A stretch of DNA of 64,000 nt. Source: Flavobacteria bacterium MS024-3C. Lineage in GTDB: Bacteria; Bacteroidota; Bacteroidia; Flavobacteriales; Flavobacteriaceae. Shown here in pieces: positions 3,758 through 11,242 of the stretch. The stretch covers positions 1-64,000 of the forward strand of contig ABVW01000006.1 of assembly GCA_000173115.1 (NCBI GenBank), given 5' to 3'. Each line of letters opens with the position of its first letter. Positions within the stretch are counted from its first letter, which is position 1. Made by a program: the position numbers and the translations under genes. Under the pieces are notes generated by a model. That model made no database searches and was not told where the DNA came from. It saw only the letters and a program-made list of their open reading frames with translations.

Positions 3758-4369
3758 ATGAAAAAACTCTTTATTACCCTTACCGCAGCTTTATTAGCTA
3801 CTACAAACACTTTTGCAACTCCTTTAGAATCCTCAAAGAAAGCTACTGAAAAAACAACGACTGTTGTTGAAAAGAAAGTGGTTAATACTGAAGCGAGTAA
3901 TATTACTTGGAAAGCCTACAAAGTAACTGGATCACACGAAGGAACCATCAACCTGGCCTCTGGAAACTTGGACTTTGACGGCACAACACTTACTGGTGGT
4001 GCATTTGTGGTAGACATGACTACTATTAACACCACTGACTTAGAAGGGGAGTACAAACAAAAATTAGACGGCCATTTGCATTCAGAAGATTTCTTTGGAA
4101 CTGCTACACATAAAACAGCTTCTTTAGAAATCACTTCAGTAACTGCTTCAGGTAAAAACGCTTATTCAGCTACTGGTAATTTAACCATCAAGAACATTAC
4201 TAAAGAGGTTAACTTCACCCTGTCTGTTTATGGAAGTAAAGCCACGGCTAGCCTAAAAGTAGACCGCTCACAATTTGACATTCGTTACGGCTCAGGATCT
4301 TTCTTTGACAACTTGGGAGACAAAACAATCTATGACGAGTTTGATTTAGTAGTAGACTTACAATTCTAA
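3758..4369 (+). CDS. YceI family periplasmic protein
   Basis: Secreted lipocalin-like beta-barrel protein of 203 residues with a clear signal peptide (about residues 1-20, ending TFA). The rest follows the YceI pattern: ITWKAYKVTGSHEGTI near 50, then HLHSEDFF near 105-112, and the C-terminal FDNLGDKTIYDEF. The family binds isoprenoid-type lipids, but the physiological ligand is not known here. It is downstream of marR in the same unit and followed by a strong terminator at 4412-4448. Confidence 0.88.
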   Translation: MKKLFITLTAALLATTNTFATPLESSKKATEKTTTVVEKKVVNTEASNITWKAYKVTGSHEGTINLASGNLDFDGTTLTGGAFVVDMTTINTTDLEGEYKQKLDGHLHSEDFFGTATHKTASLEITSVTASGKNAYSATGNLTIKNITKEVNFTLSVYGSKATASLKVDRSQFDIRYGSGSFFDNLGDKTIYDEFDLVVDLQF

Positions 4370-4411
4370 TATCTCTTTAGGATTAAAACAAATCAGGCTA
4401 TGGAATTGTTT

Positions 4412-4448
4412 AAAATCACAAAGCCATTAAAGGCTTTGTGATTTTTTT
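4412..4448 (+). terminator. Rho-independent terminator after yceI
   Basis: A 14-base arm at 4412-4425 (AAAATCACAAAGCC) pairs with 4432-4445 around a six-base loop, and a T run follows. It isolates the marR-yceI unit from the trp leader. Confidence 0.85.
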
Positions 4449-4480
4449 AATCCAAAGCTTTTTTATTCCAAGAGGTTTAT

Positions 4481-4488
4481 TATATTTG
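4481..4488 (+). promoter_or_regulatory. trp operon -7 box (TATATTTG)
   Basis: TATATTTG is an exact TAnnTTTG match. Its last base is four bases before the leader peptide ATG (4493), so transcription should start at or very near that ATG. No convincing -33 TTG is seen. Confidence 0.6.
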
Positions 4489-4492
4489 AACT

Positions 4493-4549
4493 ATGAATTT
4501 GAATAATACACAAAATTGGTGGTGGAATAACTTACAACAAACGCTGTGA
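4493..4549 (+). CDS. trpL: trp operon leader peptide with three consecutive Trp codons
   Basis: An 18-codon frame encodes MNLNNTQNWWWNNLQQTL, with TGG TGG TGG at 4517-4525 and a TGA stop at 4547-4549. A terminator hairpin and then trpE follow. Slow translation at the Trp codons would leave 4544-4556 free to form an antiterminator; translation to the stop would cover it. Both the Trp-codon content and the position directly before trpEGDCFBA support a regulatory leader rather than a chance frame. The start may be leaderless, given the -7 box four bases upstream. Confidence 0.85.
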   Translation: MNLNNTQNWWWNNLQQTL

Positions 4550-4592
4550 GCTAAGCACTACTTTGAACTATATTAAAGGCTTGTCTTCACAG
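4544..4592 (+). promoter_or_regulatory. trp antiterminator pairing (4544-4556 with 4579-4592)
   Basis: CUGUGAG (4544-4550) pairs with UUCACAG (4586-4592), and UAAGC (4552-4556) pairs with GCUUG (4579-4583), leaving only a small internal loop. The pairing uses the 5' arm and loop of the terminator, so the two structures exclude each other. It contains the leader stop codon. Pairing was worked out by eye, without energies. Confidence 0.7.
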
Positions 4593-4606
4593 ACAAGCCT
4601 TTTTAT
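4575..4606 (+). terminator. trp attenuator terminator
   Basis: AAAGGCTTGTCT (4575-4586) and AGACAAGCCTTT (4591-4602) form a perfect 12-bp stem with the loop TCAC, followed by a T-rich stretch. It lies between the leader peptide and trpE, about 70 bases before the trpE start. Confidence 0.88.
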
Positions 4607-4675
4607 TTTAATACAAATTGATTGGAAATTTCTCCAGAGAAATAGTCAATTAGGAAAGATAGAAATACCCTTATT

Positions 4676-6076
4676 ATGAGCTACGCTTTAAACACCCATT
4701 ACAAAAAAATTCTAGCAGACACCATTACCCCTGTGAGTGTATATTTAAAAATTCGGGACCGTTACCCTGGGAGTCTTTTGTTAGAAAGCAGTGATTATCA
4801 CGCCAATGACAATAGTTTTTCTTACATCTGTTTTAATCCTATTGCTCATATAGAGGTGAAAGACCAGCAAATAAAGAAGGCATATCCTGACGGGAGTAAT
4901 ACCATTACTCCCATCACTAAAGAGACCAATATACCAGAGGTCATCACTGCTTTTTCAAAAGAATTCACTAGCGAAAAACAAGATTTTAAGTTCATTACAC
5001 AAGGACTGTTTGGTTTTATGACCTATGACGCGGTTCAATACTATGAGGACATAAAAATTTCTAAAAAAGAGGGGGGGCAGGATCTTCCAGAATTGTACTA
5101 TGCAGTGTATCAGAATGTCATAGCTATTAATCACTTTAACAATGAAGCTTATATTTTTGCCCATTGCTACAACCAGCCCAATAATGTAGCAGCCATAGAA
5201 CAGCTGATCGCTGTTAAAAACTTTGCTACCTATCCTTTTAAAATAGAAGGAGAACCAAGTATTAATATTAAAGATGAAGATTATAAAGCATTGGTAGAGA
5301 CTGCCAAGAAGCATTGCCAAAGGGGCGATGTCTTCCAATTGGTACTCTCTAGGAGGTTTACCCAAAAATTTAGTGGAGACGAATTTAATGTTTACAGGGC
5401 CTTAAGAGCGGTGAATCCGTCCCCTTACCTGTTTTACTTTGATTATGGTAATTACAAGATTTTTGGAAGTTCTCCTGAAGCGCAATTGGTGGTAAAAGAC
5501 CAAAAAGCTGAAATTCATCCTATTGCAGGTACGTTTAAAAGGACTGGAAATGATGAACAAGATGCTGTTTTGGCAAAAGAACTCACAGAAGACCACAAAG
5601 AAAATGCTGAACATGTTATGTTAGTGGACCTGGCCAGAAATGACCTCAGCAGACATGGAAAAATGGTTACAGTAGAAAACTATCGTGAGGTCCAGTTTTT
5701 TTCTCATGTCATTCATTTGGTGTCCAAAGTGACAGGTATTAAAAAAGCAGACACGCCTACCATGAATATTGTGGCCGACACTTTTCCGGCCGGAACCCTC
5801 AGCGGGGCACCCAAACACAAAGCCATGGAGTTAATTGAAAAATATGAACCCACACCAAGGGGGTATTACGGAGGAGCCATTGGTTTCATGGATTTTGAAG
5901 GCAATTTTAACCATGCAATCATGATTAGGACCTTTTTAAGCAAAGACCATCAATTGCAATATCAGGCTGGTGCTGGGATTGTTGCTGCATCTGACCCTGA
6001 ATCCGAATTACAAGAAACCTACAATAAATTAGGCGCCCTCACCAAAGCTTTGTCTTTGGCAGAGGACATTTACTAA
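4676..6076 (+). CDS. trpE: Anthranilate synthase component I
   Basis: Catalyses chorismate plus ammonia (from TrpG) to anthranilate, the first committed step to tryptophan. The 466 residues contain an N-terminal domain with LLESS at about 35-39, the motif tied to tryptophan feedback in this family, and a C-terminal chorismate-binding domain (about 200-460) with IAGTFKRTG and DTFPAGTLSGAPK. It is the first structural gene of trpEGDCFBA and is separated from the leader by the attenuator. A 60-base gap separates it from trpG. Length and motifs are normal. Confidence 0.96.
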   Translation: MSYALNTHYKKILADTITPVSVYLKIRDRYPGSLLLESSDYHANDNSFSYICFNPIAHIEVKDQQIKKAYPDGSNTITPITKETNIPEVITAFSKEFTSEKQDFKFITQGLFGFMTYDAVQYYEDIKISKKEGGQDLPELYYAVYQNVIAINHFNNEAYIFAHCYNQPNNVAAIEQLIAVKNFATYPFKIEGEPSINIKDEDYKALVETAKKHCQRGDVFQLVLSRRFTQKFSGDEFNVYRALRAVNPSPYLFYFDYGNYKIFGSSPEAQLVVKDQKAEIHPIAGTFKRTGNDEQDAVLAKELTEDHKENAEHVMLVDLARNDLSRHGKMVTVENYREVQFFSHVIHLVSKVTGIKKADTPTMNIVADTFPAGTLSGAPKHKAMELIEKYEPTPRGYYGGAIGFMDFEGNFNHAIMIRTFLSKDHQLQYQAGAGIVAASDPESELQETYNKLGALTKALSLAEDIY

Positions 6077-6136: not shown

Positions 6137-6736
6137 ATGACAGACATATTACTCATAGACAATTACGACTCTTTTACCTACAACCTAGTGCATTATCTGG
6201 AAGAATTAGGCGCTCAGGTCACTGTTCGTAGAAACAACAAAATAAGCTTGGAAGAAGTAGCTGCTTTTTCTCATATTGTATTGTCCCCAGGGCCAGGTAT
6301 TCCTGATGAAGCAGGACTACTGAAAGAGATTATAGCCGCCTATGCGCCGACCAAAAAAATATTGGGGGTATGTCTTGGACAACAAGCCATTGCAGAAGTG
6401 TTTGGAGGTAGTTTAGAAAATTTATCTGAGGTGTATCACGGCATAGCCACTCCTATTCAAATCACGGATCCCCAAGCTACATTGTTTAAGGACTTACCTA
6501 CTGAGGTGGTTGTGGGTAGGTACCATTCCTGGGTAGTGTCTAAAAACCTTCCAGAGGTTTTAAAAGTAACCGCCATAGACAGTGAGGGTCAGATTATGGC
6601 CTTTGAACACAAAAGCTATTCCGTTCATGCAGTACAGTTTCATCCTGAATCCATATTGACCCCTAGTGGAAAAAAAATGTTAGCGAACTGGCTTGGGGTT
6701 TCATGGGAATTTAAGCCAGAAGAAAAAATGTACTAG
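6137..6736 (+). CDS. trpG: Anthranilate synthase component II (glutamine amidotransferase)
   Basis: Supplies ammonia from glutamine to TrpE. Class I amidotransferase of 199 residues with nucleophile Cys79 in GVCLGQQ and the His-Glu pair in QFHPES near 170. Only the trp pathway genes flank it, although in many bacteria the same subunit also serves p-aminobenzoate synthesis, which cannot be excluded. It ends 36 bases before trpD. Confidence 0.95.
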   Translation: MTDILLIDNYDSFTYNLVHYLEELGAQVTVRRNNKISLEEVAAFSHIVLSPGPGIPDEAGLLKEIIAAYAPTKKILGVCLGQQAIAEVFGGSLENLSEVYHGIATPIQITDPQATLFKDLPTEVVVGRYHSWVVSKNLPEVLKVTAIDSEGQIMAFEHKSYSVHAVQFHPESILTPSGKKMLANWLGVSWEFKPEEKMY

Positions 6737-6772
6737 TCGCTAAACCAGCTAAAAGCTATTAAAAAATTGAAA

Positions 6773-7759
6773 ATGAAAAACATACTCAACCGACTCATCC
6801 AGCACGAAGTGCTTAGCAGACAAGAATCCAAAGATATTCTTGTAGGCATAGCAAATAAGGCCTACAATGAGTCTGAAATTGCTTCTTTTCTAACTGTATA
6901 CATGATGCGGAGCATACAACTAGAAGAACTAGAGGGTTTTAGAGACGCTCTTTTAGAATTGTGCCTGGCAGTAGATCTCTCCGCTTATGAGCCTATAGAT
7001 TTATGTGGTACAGGAGGAGACGGAAAAGATACTTTTAACATCTCTACACTAGCCTCTTTTGTAACGGCAGCCAATGGTGTTAAAGTCACCAAACACGGAA
7101 ATTACGGGGTATCTTCTTCTTGTGGGAGTAGCAATGTCATGGAAGCATTGGGCATTAAGTTCACCAATGACAAAGATTATTTAGAAAAGGCCCTTGACCA
7201 GGTTGGCATCTGTGTATTACACGCACCTTTATTCCATCCTGCTATGAAACAAGTAGCCCCTATCAGAAAAGCCCTGGGGGTAAAAACATTCTTTAATATG
7301 TTGGGACCCATGGTTAATCCAGCGTTTCCCACCCATCAGATGGTTGGGGTGTTTAATTTGGAGTTGGCTAGAATTTACGGATACCTATACCAGAAAACCG
7401 ATAAAAATTACAGTATTGTTCATGCCCTAGATGGCTATGATGAAGTGTCTCTTACCGGGGCAACAAAAATCATTACTAGAGAAAACGAAATGGTCTTAGA
7501 CCCTTCTAGTTTTGGCGTAAACACCCTGCAGGCACATGAAATTGCTGGAGGAGAGTCGGTGCCGTCTGCCGCAGCTATATTTGTAGATATTCTTAGCGGA
7601 AAAGGTACTGACGCTCAAAACAATGTTGTTTGTGCCAATGCAGCAGTGGCCATAAATACGGTTAAAAACAAGGGTATTCTTACGGCTTTTGAACAGGCTA
7701 AAGAAACCTTATTATCTGGCGCAGCACTCAAAAAATTACAGCAATTACAAGCTTTATAA
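6773..7759 (+). CDS. trpD: Anthranilate phosphoribosyltransferase
   Basis: Transfers phosphoribosyl from PRPP to anthranilate. The 328-residue protein has the family's GTGGDGKDTFNIST loop near residue 80 and KHGNYGVSS(S)CGS near 110. I use the ATG at 6773 rather than the in-frame TTG at 6767. The stop directly abuts the ATG of trpC, pointing to coupled translation. Confidence 0.95.
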   Translation: MKNILNRLIQHEVLSRQESKDILVGIANKAYNESEIASFLTVYMMRSIQLEELEGFRDALLELCLAVDLSAYEPIDLCGTGGDGKDTFNISTLASFVTAANGVKVTKHGNYGVSSSCGSSNVMEALGIKFTNDKDYLEKALDQVGICVLHAPLFHPAMKQVAPIRKALGVKTFFNMLGPMVNPAFPTHQMVGVFNLELARIYGYLYQKTDKNYSIVHALDGYDEVSLTGATKIITRENEMVLDPSSFGVNTLQAHEIAGGESVPSAAAIFVDILSGKGTDAQNNVVCANAAVAINTVKNKGILTAFEQAKETLLSGAALKKLQQLQAL

Positions 7760-8545
7760 ATGAATATTCTAGACAAAATAATAGCAGATAAAAAAATAGA
7801 AGTAGCCCTTAAAAAAGGATTAATCTCTAGTGCCGTCCTAATGCAAAGTCCCTTATTTGAGCGTCCAACAAATTCTATGGCAACTAAGATAAGACAAAGT
7901 GCGAGTGGTATAATAGCGGAGCACAAAAGACGGTCTCCTTCCAAAGACGTCATAAACAATAGTCTTAAAGTACCTTTAGTGGTGGAAGGCTACGAAAAAG
8001 CAGGTGTTTGCGGTATTTCAGTGCTCACAGACGGTCCTTATTTTGGAGGTGCCCTTGAAGATCTCTTGCTCGCAAGAGCGTCTGTAGATACACCCCTTTT
8101 GAGAAAGGAATTTATAGTAGATCCTTACCAAATTATAGAAGCTAAGGCCCATGGGGCCGATACCATTTTACTTATAGCAGCAGTACTGACTAGAGCAGAA
8201 ATTCATTCTCTTTCTACCCTGGCCCAATCTCTTGGTATGGAAGTGCTTTTAGAAGTTCATGACCTAGAGGAACTAGAAAAATCAATTATGCCCTCCTTAA
8301 ATATGATTGGCGTGAACAATAGAAACCTAAAAACATTTGAAGTAAATCTAAAAACTTCTATGGAGTTGTCTTCAAGAATACCAGATGATTTTGTGAAGGT
8401 TTCTGAGAGTGGCATTAGTAATGTAAGTGCGGTTAAAGAATTAAAAAACTATGGATATCAGGGGTTTTTAGTGGGTGAAAATTTCATGAAAACCAATGAT
8501 CCTGGTACTGCTGCACTTGAATTTATTAAACAAATAGAAGGATAA
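7760..8545 (+). CDS. trpC: Indole-3-glycerol phosphate synthase
   Basis: Converts carboxyphenylaminodeoxyribulose phosphate to indole-3-glycerol phosphate on a TIM barrel of 261 residues. Family motifs include the IIAEHKRRSPSK segment (about 52-63), LLRKEFIVDPYQI near 115 and IGVNNRNLKTFEVN near 190, then VSESGI near 215. It begins immediately after trpD and ends one base before trpF. Here TrpC and TrpF are separate proteins, unlike the fused enterobacterial form. Confidence 0.95.
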   Translation: MNILDKIIADKKIEVALKKGLISSAVLMQSPLFERPTNSMATKIRQSASGIIAEHKRRSPSKDVINNSLKVPLVVEGYEKAGVCGISVLTDGPYFGGALEDLLLARASVDTPLLRKEFIVDPYQIIEAKAHGADTILLIAAVLTRAEIHSLSTLAQSLGMEVLLEVHDLEELEKSIMPSLNMIGVNNRNLKTFEVNLKTSMELSSRIPDDFVKVSESGISNVSAVKELKNYGYQGFLVGENFMKTNDPGTAALEFIKQIEG

Positions 8546-8546
8546 T

Positions 8547-9260
8547 ATGGGCGCTTCTAACCTACATACTCCCTTTAGTACCCCTGCATTAAAAGTCTGT
8601 GGCATGAGGGACCCTGAGAATATTAGGGCAGTGGCAGCAATAAAGCCAAATTATATGGGCTTTATTTTTTGGGAACCCTCGAAACGGTTTATTCAAAACC
8701 CCATTCCAGAAATAGATCCTAATGTTCAGAAGATAGGCGTATTTGTAAAGGCAACACCTAATTTTATCCTAAAAACCATCCAGGAAAATGATTTACAGGG
8801 CGTTCAATTGCATGGAGGAGAAACTACCCAGGATTGCAAAGTGCTGAGGGACGCTTTGGATAAAGAAGTAGGTCTTAGCAAGCCTTCCTTGGTGATTATA
8901 AAAGCTTTTTCAGTAGCAGATCAATTTGACTTTTCAAGTCTTGCTGCTTACGAGGCCTATTGCGACTACTTCCTTTTTGACACTAAGGGGAAACTCCCTG
9001 GAGGCAATGGCTATACCTTTTCATGGAAATTATTAAGCGCATATCCAAGCAATACCCCTTATTTCTTAAGCGGTGGTATTGGCCTAAGACAAACAGATGC
9101 TTTGGCTGAATTTTTAGAAAGTGACGCCGCTAAAATGTGTGCTGTTATAGATGTAAATAGTACTTTTGAAGAAGAAGACTATACCAAAAATTATAAAGAC
9201 CTAGAATTATTCAATACCGCTTTAAAAAAAAGATTTCTACCCCTGAAAAATACCCTATGA
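8547..9260 (+). CDS. trpF: Phosphoribosylanthranilate isomerase
   Basis: Amadori isomerase on a TIM barrel. The catalytic Cys is in [12 protein letters not shown] near residue 18 and the catalytic Asp in [11 protein letters not shown] near 145; GVQLHGGE lies near 90. At 237 residues it is somewhat longer than the usual ~210, with an N-terminal lead of about 14 residues that might not be translated. Its end overlaps the trpB ATG by four bases (ATGA), typical of coupling. Confidence 0.93.
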
Positions 9261-10444
9261 AAAAAACACACCACGTAGATGAAAATGGATATTACGGCTC
9301 TTTTGGAGGGGCTTATATTCCTGAAATGCTATTTCCAAATACAGAAGAACTCAGGACCCAATATTTAGATATTATGGGCTCTGAAAGTTTTAAAAAAGAA
9401 TTTGACTATCTCCTTAGAGATTATGTAGGAAGGCCTACCCCACTTTATTTTGCGGAAAGACTCTCTGCACTGTACAACACTAAGATCTATCTTAAAAGAG
9501 AAGACTTATGCCATACTGGAGCGCACAAGGTTAACAATACCATTGGCCAAATCCTGATGGCTAAAAGACTGGGTAAAACAAGAATTATTGCAGAGACCGG
9601 AGCAGGACAACACGGTGTAGCTACTGCTACAGTCTGTGCGTTAATGGGCATGGAATGTATTGTTTATATGGGTGCTGTAGATATTAAAAGACAGGCCCCA
9701 AATGTGGCTAGAATGAAGATGCTAGGTGCTACAGTTAGGGCGGCTGAATCTGGAAGTAAAACCCTTAAAGACGCAACCAACGAAGCCATTAGGGATTGGA
9801 TTAACAACCCTGTGAACACCCATTATATTATTGGTTCTGTAGTAGGTCCTCATCCTTATCCTGATATGGTGGCTCGCTTTCAATCTGTGATCTCTAAGGA
9901 AATTAAAAGCCAATTATTAGAAAAAGAGGGTCGTGAAAATCCAGACCATGTAGTTGCATGTGTGGGTGGAGGAAGTAATGCCGCTGGAGCTTACTACCAT
10001 TTTTTAGATACCCCTGAAGTAAATATTATTGCGGTAGAAGCCGCTGGAAAAGGAATTCATACCGGAGAAAGTGCTGCTACCTCTGCACTGGGAAAAGAAG
10101 GCATTATTCACGGAAGTAAAACCCTACTCATGCAAACCCAAGACGGACAAATTACCGAGCCTTACTCTATATCTGCGGGCTTAGATTATCCAGGAGTAGG
10201 TCCAATGCATGCCCATTTATTTGAATCTAAAAGAGCGGAGTTTATTTCAGTAACAGATCAAGATGCCATGGCTGCAGGATTACTGGTATCTAAAATGGAG
10301 GGGATTATACCTGCTATTGAAACTTCTCACGCCTTTGCCATTTTTGAAAACAGGCCTTTTGGTAAAGAAGAAGTGGTAGTAGTTAACTTATCTGGCCGAG
10401 GAGACAAAGACTTAAATACCTACATAGATTATTTTAAATTATAA
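9257..10444 (+). CDS. trpB: Tryptophan synthase beta chain
   Basis: PLP enzyme that joins indole and serine to make tryptophan. The 395 residues contain the PLP lysine K91 in [10 protein letters not shown], the GAGQHG loop near 116, and the phosphate-binding GGGSNAAG near 237. All catalytic elements are present. It overlaps trpF and is 9 bases upstream of trpA, its partner in the alpha2beta2 complex. Confidence 0.97.
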
Positions 10445-10453
10445 ATAAGCAAC

Positions 10454-11242
10454 ATGTCACAAGCTACGCTCGTACCCAATAGAATTAATACCCGAATGGC
10501 AGACCCCAAAAAAGTGCTGTCCATATACTTTACCGCAGGCTACCCCGAAAAAGAAGACACTACCAAAGTATTACAGCAACTGCAAGACAGTGGGGTAGAT
10601 TTAGTAGAAATAGGACTTCCTTTTAGTGATCCTTTAGCAGACGGTCCAACCATTCAAGATAGCTCCACAACAGCACTAAAAAATGGAATGAGCACCCAAT
10701 TACTTTTTGACCAATTAAAAGACATTCGAAAAAGCATTCACATTCCCTTAATTGTCATGGGCTATTTTAACCCCATGCTACAATACGGCGTAGATGCTTT
10801 TTTAAAAGAGTGTGCCCAGATAGGAATAGATGGGATTATCATGCCAGACCTACCACTAGCAGAGTATAAGCAGCACTACGCCGCTATGTATGAAAAATAC
10901 GGGATTAAAAACATCTTTTTAATCACCCCTCAAACCTCAGATGCCCGAATTAGAGAAATAGACAAGGCTTCTGATAGTTTCATATATCTGGTAAGCACAG
11001 CCTCTGTAACAGGCAGCAAAAGTGGTTTTGGCCCGGAACAAGAAGCTTATTTTGAAAGAATTGCGAATATGAAGCTCAAAAACCCTTTGGTGGTTGGATT
11101 TGGAATACATGATGCACACACCTTTACTCAAGCTACAAAACACACTTCAGGAGCCATTATTGGATCTGCTTTTATTAAGACCATCACAGAAAAAGGGCTT
11201 GCAGGAATAGCCCCGTTCATACAAAGTCTGCGTCCAGAATAG
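10454..11242 (+). CDS. trpA: Tryptophan synthase alpha chain
   Basis: Splits indole-3-glycerol phosphate to indole, which is channelled to TrpB. TIM barrel of 262 residues with catalytic Glu52 (LVEIGLPFSDP) and Asp63 (LADGPTIQ), equivalent to E49 and D60 of the enterobacterial enzyme. It is the last gene of the operon. I see no strong terminator directly after it. Confidence 0.96.
   Translation: MSQATLVPNRINTRMADPKKVLSIYFTAGYPEKEDTTKVLQQLQDSGVDLVEIGLPFSDPLADGPTIQDSSTTALKNGMSTQLLFDQLKDIRKSIHIPLIVMGYFNPMLQYGVDAFLKECAQIGIDGIIMPDLPLAEYKQHYAAMYEKYGIKNIFLITPQTSDARIREIDKASDSFIYLVSTASVTGSKSGFGPEQEAYFERIANMKLKNPLVVGFGIHDAHTFTQATKHTSGAIIGSAFIKTITEKGLAGIAPFIQSLRPE

Follow-up and report, generated by a model that had tools for sequence, protein, structure and literature searches.

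Is the tryptophan operon of this flavobacterium preceded by a ribosome-mediated attenuator, is such an element already known, and where would its leader RNA begin? We addressed these questions in the window, a stretch of 64,000 nucleotides on contig ABVW01000006.1 of Flavobacteria bacterium MS024-3C, whose source genome is an incomplete assembly (1.5 Mb, 21 contigs, 64% complete). On the plus strand, a leader ORF is followed by a hairpin with a T-rich tail, then by trpE and then by the other trp ORFs (Table 1), which we take to be trpG, trpD, trpC, trpF, trpB and trpA. Two features expected of an attenuator were found here: a short leader ORF in which Trp codons stand in tandem, and an intrinsic terminator ahead of the first gene. 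The 18-residue leader with three consecutive Trp codons is present just where a sequence-only reading of this DNA had placed it; its stop codon is TGA (4547-4549). A scan of the window for other run-type leader peptides with a hairpin behind them returned only two weak 7-bp matches besides the trp leader, which we took as chance. We are confident that the trp operon is preceded by a transcription attenuator of the ribosome-mediated type, a divergent relative of the Rfam family RF01692.

Table 1. Positions and basis of the leader, RNA and operon features in the window.
Feature	Position	Strand	Basis
Predicted Bacteroidota-type sigma-A promoter, −7 box TATATTTG at 4481-4488	4458..4488	+	sequence, relatives' consensus
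Predicted transcription start, A of leader AUG (leaderless mRNA)	4493	+	box position
Leader peptide ORF trpL, MNLNNTQNWWWNNLQQTL, 18 aa	4493..4549	+	sequence; conserved in family
Three tandem Trp codons (codons 9-11), TGG x3	4517..4525	+	sequence
Segment 1 outer arm, within the Trp codons; partner strand 4556-4562	4518..4524	+	folding
Segment 1 inner arm, CUUACA; partner strand 4545-4550	4531..4536	+	folding
Segment 2, antiterminator 5′ strand CUGUGAGCUAAGC, overlaps stop codon	4544..4556	+	folding, duplex energy, pairing counts
Intrinsic terminator: stem of 12 bp (4575-4586:4591-4602), loop of 4 bases, T-rich tail behind it	4575..4602	+	folding, terminator scan
Segment 3, antiterminator 3′ strand	4579..4592	+	folding, pairing counts
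trpE (anthranilate synthase component I), operon gene 1	4676..6076	+	ORF, PF04715 match
Remaining trp operon ORFs	6137..11242	+	ORF list; putative gene names

We folded 4493-4610, as the sequence-only reading had proposed, and observed an energy of −30.1 kcal/mol that none of 200 shuffles matched (z −4.8). The most stable whole-RNA fold contained a 1:2 stem in which the two outer arms enclose the inner helix. By eye, that inner helix reads CUUACG:CGUGAG in many relatives and CUUACA:UGUGAG in the clade of the window. The antiterminator (2:3) pairs 4544-4549 with 4587-4592 (6 bp), 4550 with 4585, and 4552-4556 with 4579-4583 (5 bp). Its duplex energy was −14.7 against a shuffle mean of −8.7, and 2 of 100 shuffles were as good. 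The terminator was the sole terminator-like site listed in 4300-4750, where shuffles gave 0.2. Free folding agreed with the terminator scan on that hairpin and with the duplex energies on the antiterminator, both of which had been claimed from the letters. Segment 3 had been described as the 5′ arm and loop of the terminator; the loop is included whole, but the 5′ arm enters only in part, together with the two bases that open the 3′ arm. The earlier count of only two competing stems was wrong because a 1:2 protector stem exists, which makes three. With the stem count corrected, the reading as a classical ribosome-mediated attenuator is supported.

Just 5′ of the trp promoter, at 4413-4448, we saw by eye an inverted repeat (AAATCACAAAGCC/GGCTTTGTGATTT; 4413-4444) followed by T's. 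Its second half, GCTTTGTGATTTTTTT, occupies the same place in the five other loci of the window's clade. The strong terminator that had been reported there, of a putative yceI gene, is visible by eye as this repeat and its T's, but it was absent from the output of the terminator scan of 4300-4750.

Conditional folds were computed on the RNA left free by a ribosome, at seven nascent lengths, with the 3′ edge of the ribosome assumed to lie 12 bases beyond the start of the A-site codon. When the ribosome sat on W10 or W11, the best fold contained part of the antiterminator from nascent end 4590 and all of it at nascent ends 4593-4596 (−14.2 kcal/mol). With a ribosome on W9, the inner 1:2 helix was possible up to nascent end 4590 and the antiterminator won at 4593. 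With a ribosome at the stop codon the antiterminator never formed, and the terminator followed. The RNA without a ribosome formed the 1:2 stem and then the terminator. At nascent ends 4593-4596 of this ribosome-free RNA the antiterminator was briefly best (−17.6, versus −13.6 for the 1:2 fold at 4590), so control without translation may be leaky. The folds make antiterminator and terminator mutually exclusive and dependent on the ribosome, and they reproduce the earlier logic in which a stalled ribosome frees segment 2 and a ribosome at the stop masks it.

We applied the same procedure to E. coli trpL, which switched alike: the antiterminator (−15.6 versus −14.2 in the window) and then the terminator, from three mutually exclusive stems. 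The window differs from E. coli trpL in having three Trp codons rather than two, and in an antiterminator that takes the terminator loop besides the 5′ arm. Its 1:2 stem also holds more weakly without a ribosome, whereas that of E. coli held at every length tested. In each state tested, for the window and for E. coli alike, no fold surpassed the finished terminator. This result, obtained from equilibrium folds, implies that the switch must be kinetic, with its outcome set by the order of folding. RF00513 Trp_leader, which we take to be the Rfam family of the E. coli trpL attenuator, matched the window only at chance level (16.8 bits, E 0.5; cut-off 41).

We assessed conservation upstream of trpE in the Flavobacteriaceae. 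A search at E 1e-80 located TrpE in 136 of the family's 149 genomes, and 133 of these gave usable upstream regions (30 obtained as loci, the window's own included, and 103 fetched separately; partial TrpE matches G066, G079 and G147 were left out). An ATG-started ORF with tandem TGG codons lay at most 700 bases upstream of trpE in 128/133 regions. The reverse-strand control gave 2/133, and mononucleotide-shuffled sets averaged 0.95 each. A few of these 128 leaders, such as that of L259, are atypical and may be chance. Among the other five regions, one is truncated where its contig stops but still shows the Trp run, three have a leader that by eye starts with GTG or TTG, and L257 is the sole region of the 133 in which no leader was found upstream of trpE. 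A first set of family and named-relative loci carried the leader in 109/110, the exception being L091 with a TTG start. Its named relatives were the best 80 of 562 and hence near ones, with Maribacter, Allomuricauda, Aquimarina and Flavobacterium among them.

The first Trp was codon 9 in 108 of the 128 family leaders, and the run comprised three Trp codons in 113 and two in 15. Where several in-frame ATGs were available, the start eight codons before the Trp run was preferred for this count; taking the nearest ATG instead still placed it eight codons before the run in 94/97 loci. The residues ahead of the run differed among relatives. Judged from sequence comparison, this conservation places the attenuator far beyond chance.

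In eight loci of the Allomuricauda/Flagellimonas type (L049, L052, L056, L060, L061, L068, L070 and L073) the leader lies ~490-505 bases 5′ of trpE, and a further short Trp-bearing ORF (MPAIRREKQLKKWNRSWK... or similar) stands between the two. Two contigs of Allomuricauda taeanensis JCM 17757 (L065 and L069) have identical leaders and identical TrpE, which reflects either a duplicated locus or a mixed assembly.

We also examined the antiterminator pairing across relatives. Because the MAFFT alignment displaces the terminator loop of the window's clade by one base relative to the others, pairings were counted by script from anchors and not from alignment columns. All 103 distinct leaders had the segment-2 GUGA at a nearly constant offset from the start of the Trp run (29 bases in 88, 30 in 15), and two had a second GUGA further on. 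At an offset of 30 the UGA of this motif falls outside the reading frame, and the leader uses a stop at another place; in some leaders, such as L092, L101 and L107, the stop precedes the motif. This spacing, fixed whether or not the UGA is the stop, shows that segment 2 is kept as RNA and not as a stop codon.

At least six contiguous antiterminator pairs to the terminator were present in 166/196 distinct family leaders, and in 10/13 leaders of another order. The remaining 30 family leaders had fewer than six contiguous pairs or no clear anchor or terminator (10 of the latter, scored as misses). They include L035 from the window's own clade, which has only five antiterminator pairs and was scored elsewhere. 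All six members of the window's clade carried a compensatory double change, from UCGUGA:UCACGA to CUGUGA:UCACAG (UC:GA to CU:AG), and other two-sided changes occurred in L132 (UU:AA) and L133 (CC:GG). A search for such changes had been suggested from the letters as a check, and loss of the Trp codons or of the alternative pairing in relatives had been named as what would count against the reading. Both are kept 5′ of trpE, so the reading stands.

Duplex energies agreed with these counts in the family (mean −15.0 versus −9.6 for dinucleotide shuffles; n = 108, with three leaders lacking a recognised terminator left out) and outside it (−18.4 versus −12.4, n = 13; −12.5 versus −9.5, n = 22). Per locus, however, the duplex beat 95% of shuffles in only 70/108 family leaders and in 9/13 and 7/22 of the outside groups. 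L135, which has no trp leader at its central TGGTGG, was removed from the group of 22 before these counts. Many of those 22 leaders read GGCAA after the stop region, a match by eye to UUGCC of the terminator 5′ arm; they follow the same logic with different wiring.

We searched Rfam for known relatives of the element. No family matched anywhere in the window at gathering cut-offs, and the novelty suggested by this empty result was overturned by a lower threshold (E up to 1), at which RF01692 Bacteroid-trp was the best match (44.1 bits, E 1.6e-4 to 3.9e-4). This score is below the RF01692 cut-off of 49 bits, so the window holds a divergent relative and not a formal Rfam hit. The alignment is full length (model 1-131 on 4476-4585) and includes the Trp run, the 1:2 hairpin and the start of the terminator. 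The element also lies where RF01692 members do, directly 5′ of trpE in Bacteroidota. Other features shared with the model are a Trp-run leader, Trp codons in the 5′ arm of the 1:2 hairpin and the terminator arm GGCUUGUC. The structure of the model is the 1:2 hairpin only, and the model ends at GGCUUGUC, without the terminator 3′ arm or an antiterminator; the antiterminator with its two-sided changes is supplied here. The window's clade differs further from RF01692 in its changed antiterminator core (CUGUGA:UCACAG) and, by predicted promoter position, would have no 5′ UTR.

Among relatives' loci, 15/20 passed the RF01692 cut-off. The five that failed (L009, L027, L032, L033 and L077) have the leader nonetheless, as does the window, and true members of RF01692 therefore exist below the cut-off of its model. 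Of three other loci tested from the window's clade, L032 and L033 were under the cut-off and L035 passed (52.3). In a phylum-wide sample, 42/395 genomes matched at E 0.001, 37 of them over the cut-off. The family rows of that sample matched in 35/41 (32 over the cut-off), which indicates that the model works well there, though not for every member. Two samples from other orders gave 12/149 (8 over the cut-off) and 23/151 (4 over the cut-off); a further other-order search returned largely the same genomes as the 149-genome sample, and both count as one.

The published literature, cited throughout from excerpts of the papers, also describes elements of this kind. The Bacteroid-trp motif comes from Weinberg et al. 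2010, Table 1 (PMC2864571). In F. psychrophilum, "strong clues" of leader-peptide attenuation have been reported before amino-acid operons (PMC9723704), and a Bacteroid-Trp RNA has been named 5′ of the trp operon and compared to E. coli (PMC6414381). In their excerpts, these two F. psychrophilum accounts give no trp stem anatomy, covariation or leaderless start. The novelty that the sequence-only reading had implied for an attenuator in a flavobacterium thus fell away, since RF01692 and these papers make the kind known; the window contributes a new divergent member.

We next considered where the leader RNA would begin. The 45 bases upstream of the window leader contain a single TAnnTTTG, whose first base stands 12 before the A of the AUG. 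At the −33 position, beginning near 4458, the window has CTTTTTT; this degenerate form of TTTG is a weak point of the predicted promoter. Among 102 distinct 45-base upstream stretches of relatives, TAnnTTTG was present in 100, compared to 3.7% of mononucleotide shuffles. The box stood at −12/−13 in 51/102, compared to 0.2% of these shuffles, and TTG/TTTG lay 23 bases before the start of the box in 81/102. In F. psychrophilum the TAnnTTTG box lies at −12 to −5 (PMC9723704), and probable promoters of F. johnsoniae have 4 or 5 nt from box to start site (PMC6847099). The position of the window's box and the published spacing (4 nt) together place the predicted start on 4493, and the window member is probably leaderless.

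Every one of the six loci in this clade, that of the window (L002, L032-L035 and L044), had the box at precisely −12. Its first base was at −12/−13 in 32 of the 128 family loci, at −14 to −19 in 28, at −20 to −31 in 61 and further than −31 in 1, and the box was absent in 6. The implied 5′ UTR is 0-1 nt in 32/128 loci and 8-19 nt in 61/128; the Maribacter loci L036-L041, with the box at −15, would have about 3 nt. Leaders outside the family (n = 35) had a recognised box in 13, all at −25 or further, and none by pattern in 22. The 0-1 nt class makes up 54 of the 109 rows of a trpE tree and needed 8 changes there, compared to a shuffled mean of 35.8. This is a quick tree with many weak branches, and the class of L107 and L023 is ambiguous because of an additional candidate ATG or box. 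Four of the 8 changes are forced by starred branches, and the six loci of the window's clade form a single starred group.

On balance, and with moderate confidence, we favor a trp attenuator that is leaderless, starting on the AUG or one base before it, in the window's clade, Allomuricauda and several other Flavobacteriaceae. Other lineages would have a 5′ UTR of 9-28 nt, and there would have been more than one move between leadered and leaderless forms while the Trp run stayed at codon 9. One attenuator would then occur in the family with a naturally graded 5′ UTR, from 0 to about 19 nt long. Leaderless trp leaders have been published for Sinorhizobium meliloti (PMC7298713) and for Streptomyces lividans trpL1, which also has WWW (PMC8079986). 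Those leaders resemble the window's in an AUG at the RNA 5′ end, but they come from other phyla and have other sequences, and the window's start is a predicted one. Within excerpts of open-licence full texts, we found no leaderless trp leader in Bacteroidota.

From these elements we infer a course of events that comprises the start site, stalling, the order of folding, read-through and the response to Trp. RNA polymerase would start at the A of the leader AUG, and a ribosome would load on this 5′-terminal AUG. Shine-Dalgarno sequences are not recognised by the ribosomes of Bacteroidota (PMC9976891), yet attenuation requires early loading of a ribosome on the leader, and a 5′-terminal AUG would offer one direct route to it. 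When charged tRNA-Trp is scarce, the ribosome would stall on codons 9-11 and cover the 5′ arms of the 1:2 stem. Segment 2, left free, would capture segment 3 as it emerges, the terminator would be blocked and the trp genes would be transcribed. When Trp is plentiful, the ribosome would reach the stop and cover segment 2, and the terminator would form. If no ribosome has loaded, the 1:2 stem would keep segment 2 and the terminator would likewise form.

The same attenuator could instead have its leader translated from an ordinary short 5′ UTR, with the true start upstream of 4493 at another promoter or from read-through. We consider this less likely, though it is the most serious of the alternatives. 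It would account for the degenerate −33 position of the window, but not readily for a box at exactly −12 throughout the clade. The general picture in related species favors an upstream start: only 5.5% of F. psychrophilum mRNAs are leaderless (PMC9723704), and of the transcripts predicted in F. johnsoniae, 87% carry leaders >10 nt (PMC6847099). Within the family, the box lies at −14 to −31 in 89/128 loci, for an implied 5′ UTR of about 2-19 nt, yet the excess of −12/−13 boxes over shuffles argues for a leaderless class, and the 45 bases upstream of the window leader contain no second TAnnTTTG.

Two other readings concern the function of the element. A constitutive premature terminator with a decorative ORF would let a fixed fraction of transcripts read through, with no sensing of Trp. 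The stability of the finished terminator in every state tested is what this reading predicts, but it leaves unexplained the Trp runs at a near-fixed codon (128/133 loci), their fixed spacing to the pairing segment and the compensatory changes, and we regard it as the least probable of all. The leader RNA or peptide might also act in trans, like Sinorhizobium rnTrpL/peTrpL, and so add to the conservation. Such action has a precedent with a leaderless trpL in Sinorhizobium (PMC7298713), and a short terminated RNA is expected here as well; the variation among relatives in the residues before the Trp run speaks against it, and we hold it to be improbable. The ribosome-mediated attenuator remains our preferred reading on both counts.

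A related element may precede hisG. HisG had no match in the incomplete assembly of the source organism. Among the family hisG loci (L260-L289), 27/30 have a leader of the type MKNRNTHHHFYTGSQAR, with HHH or a longer His run, ~280-340 bases 5′ of the HisG domain (e.g. L274, L278 and L280). Ten hisG loci gave no Rfam match at cut-off, and L274 scored 31.8 bits against RF00514 His_leader (cut-off 49). In several his leaders we saw by eye that a segment, CUCAGGCGAG, can pair with CGUUUGAG of the terminator behind it. These sequence features suggest that the element upstream of hisG is likely a histidine attenuator.
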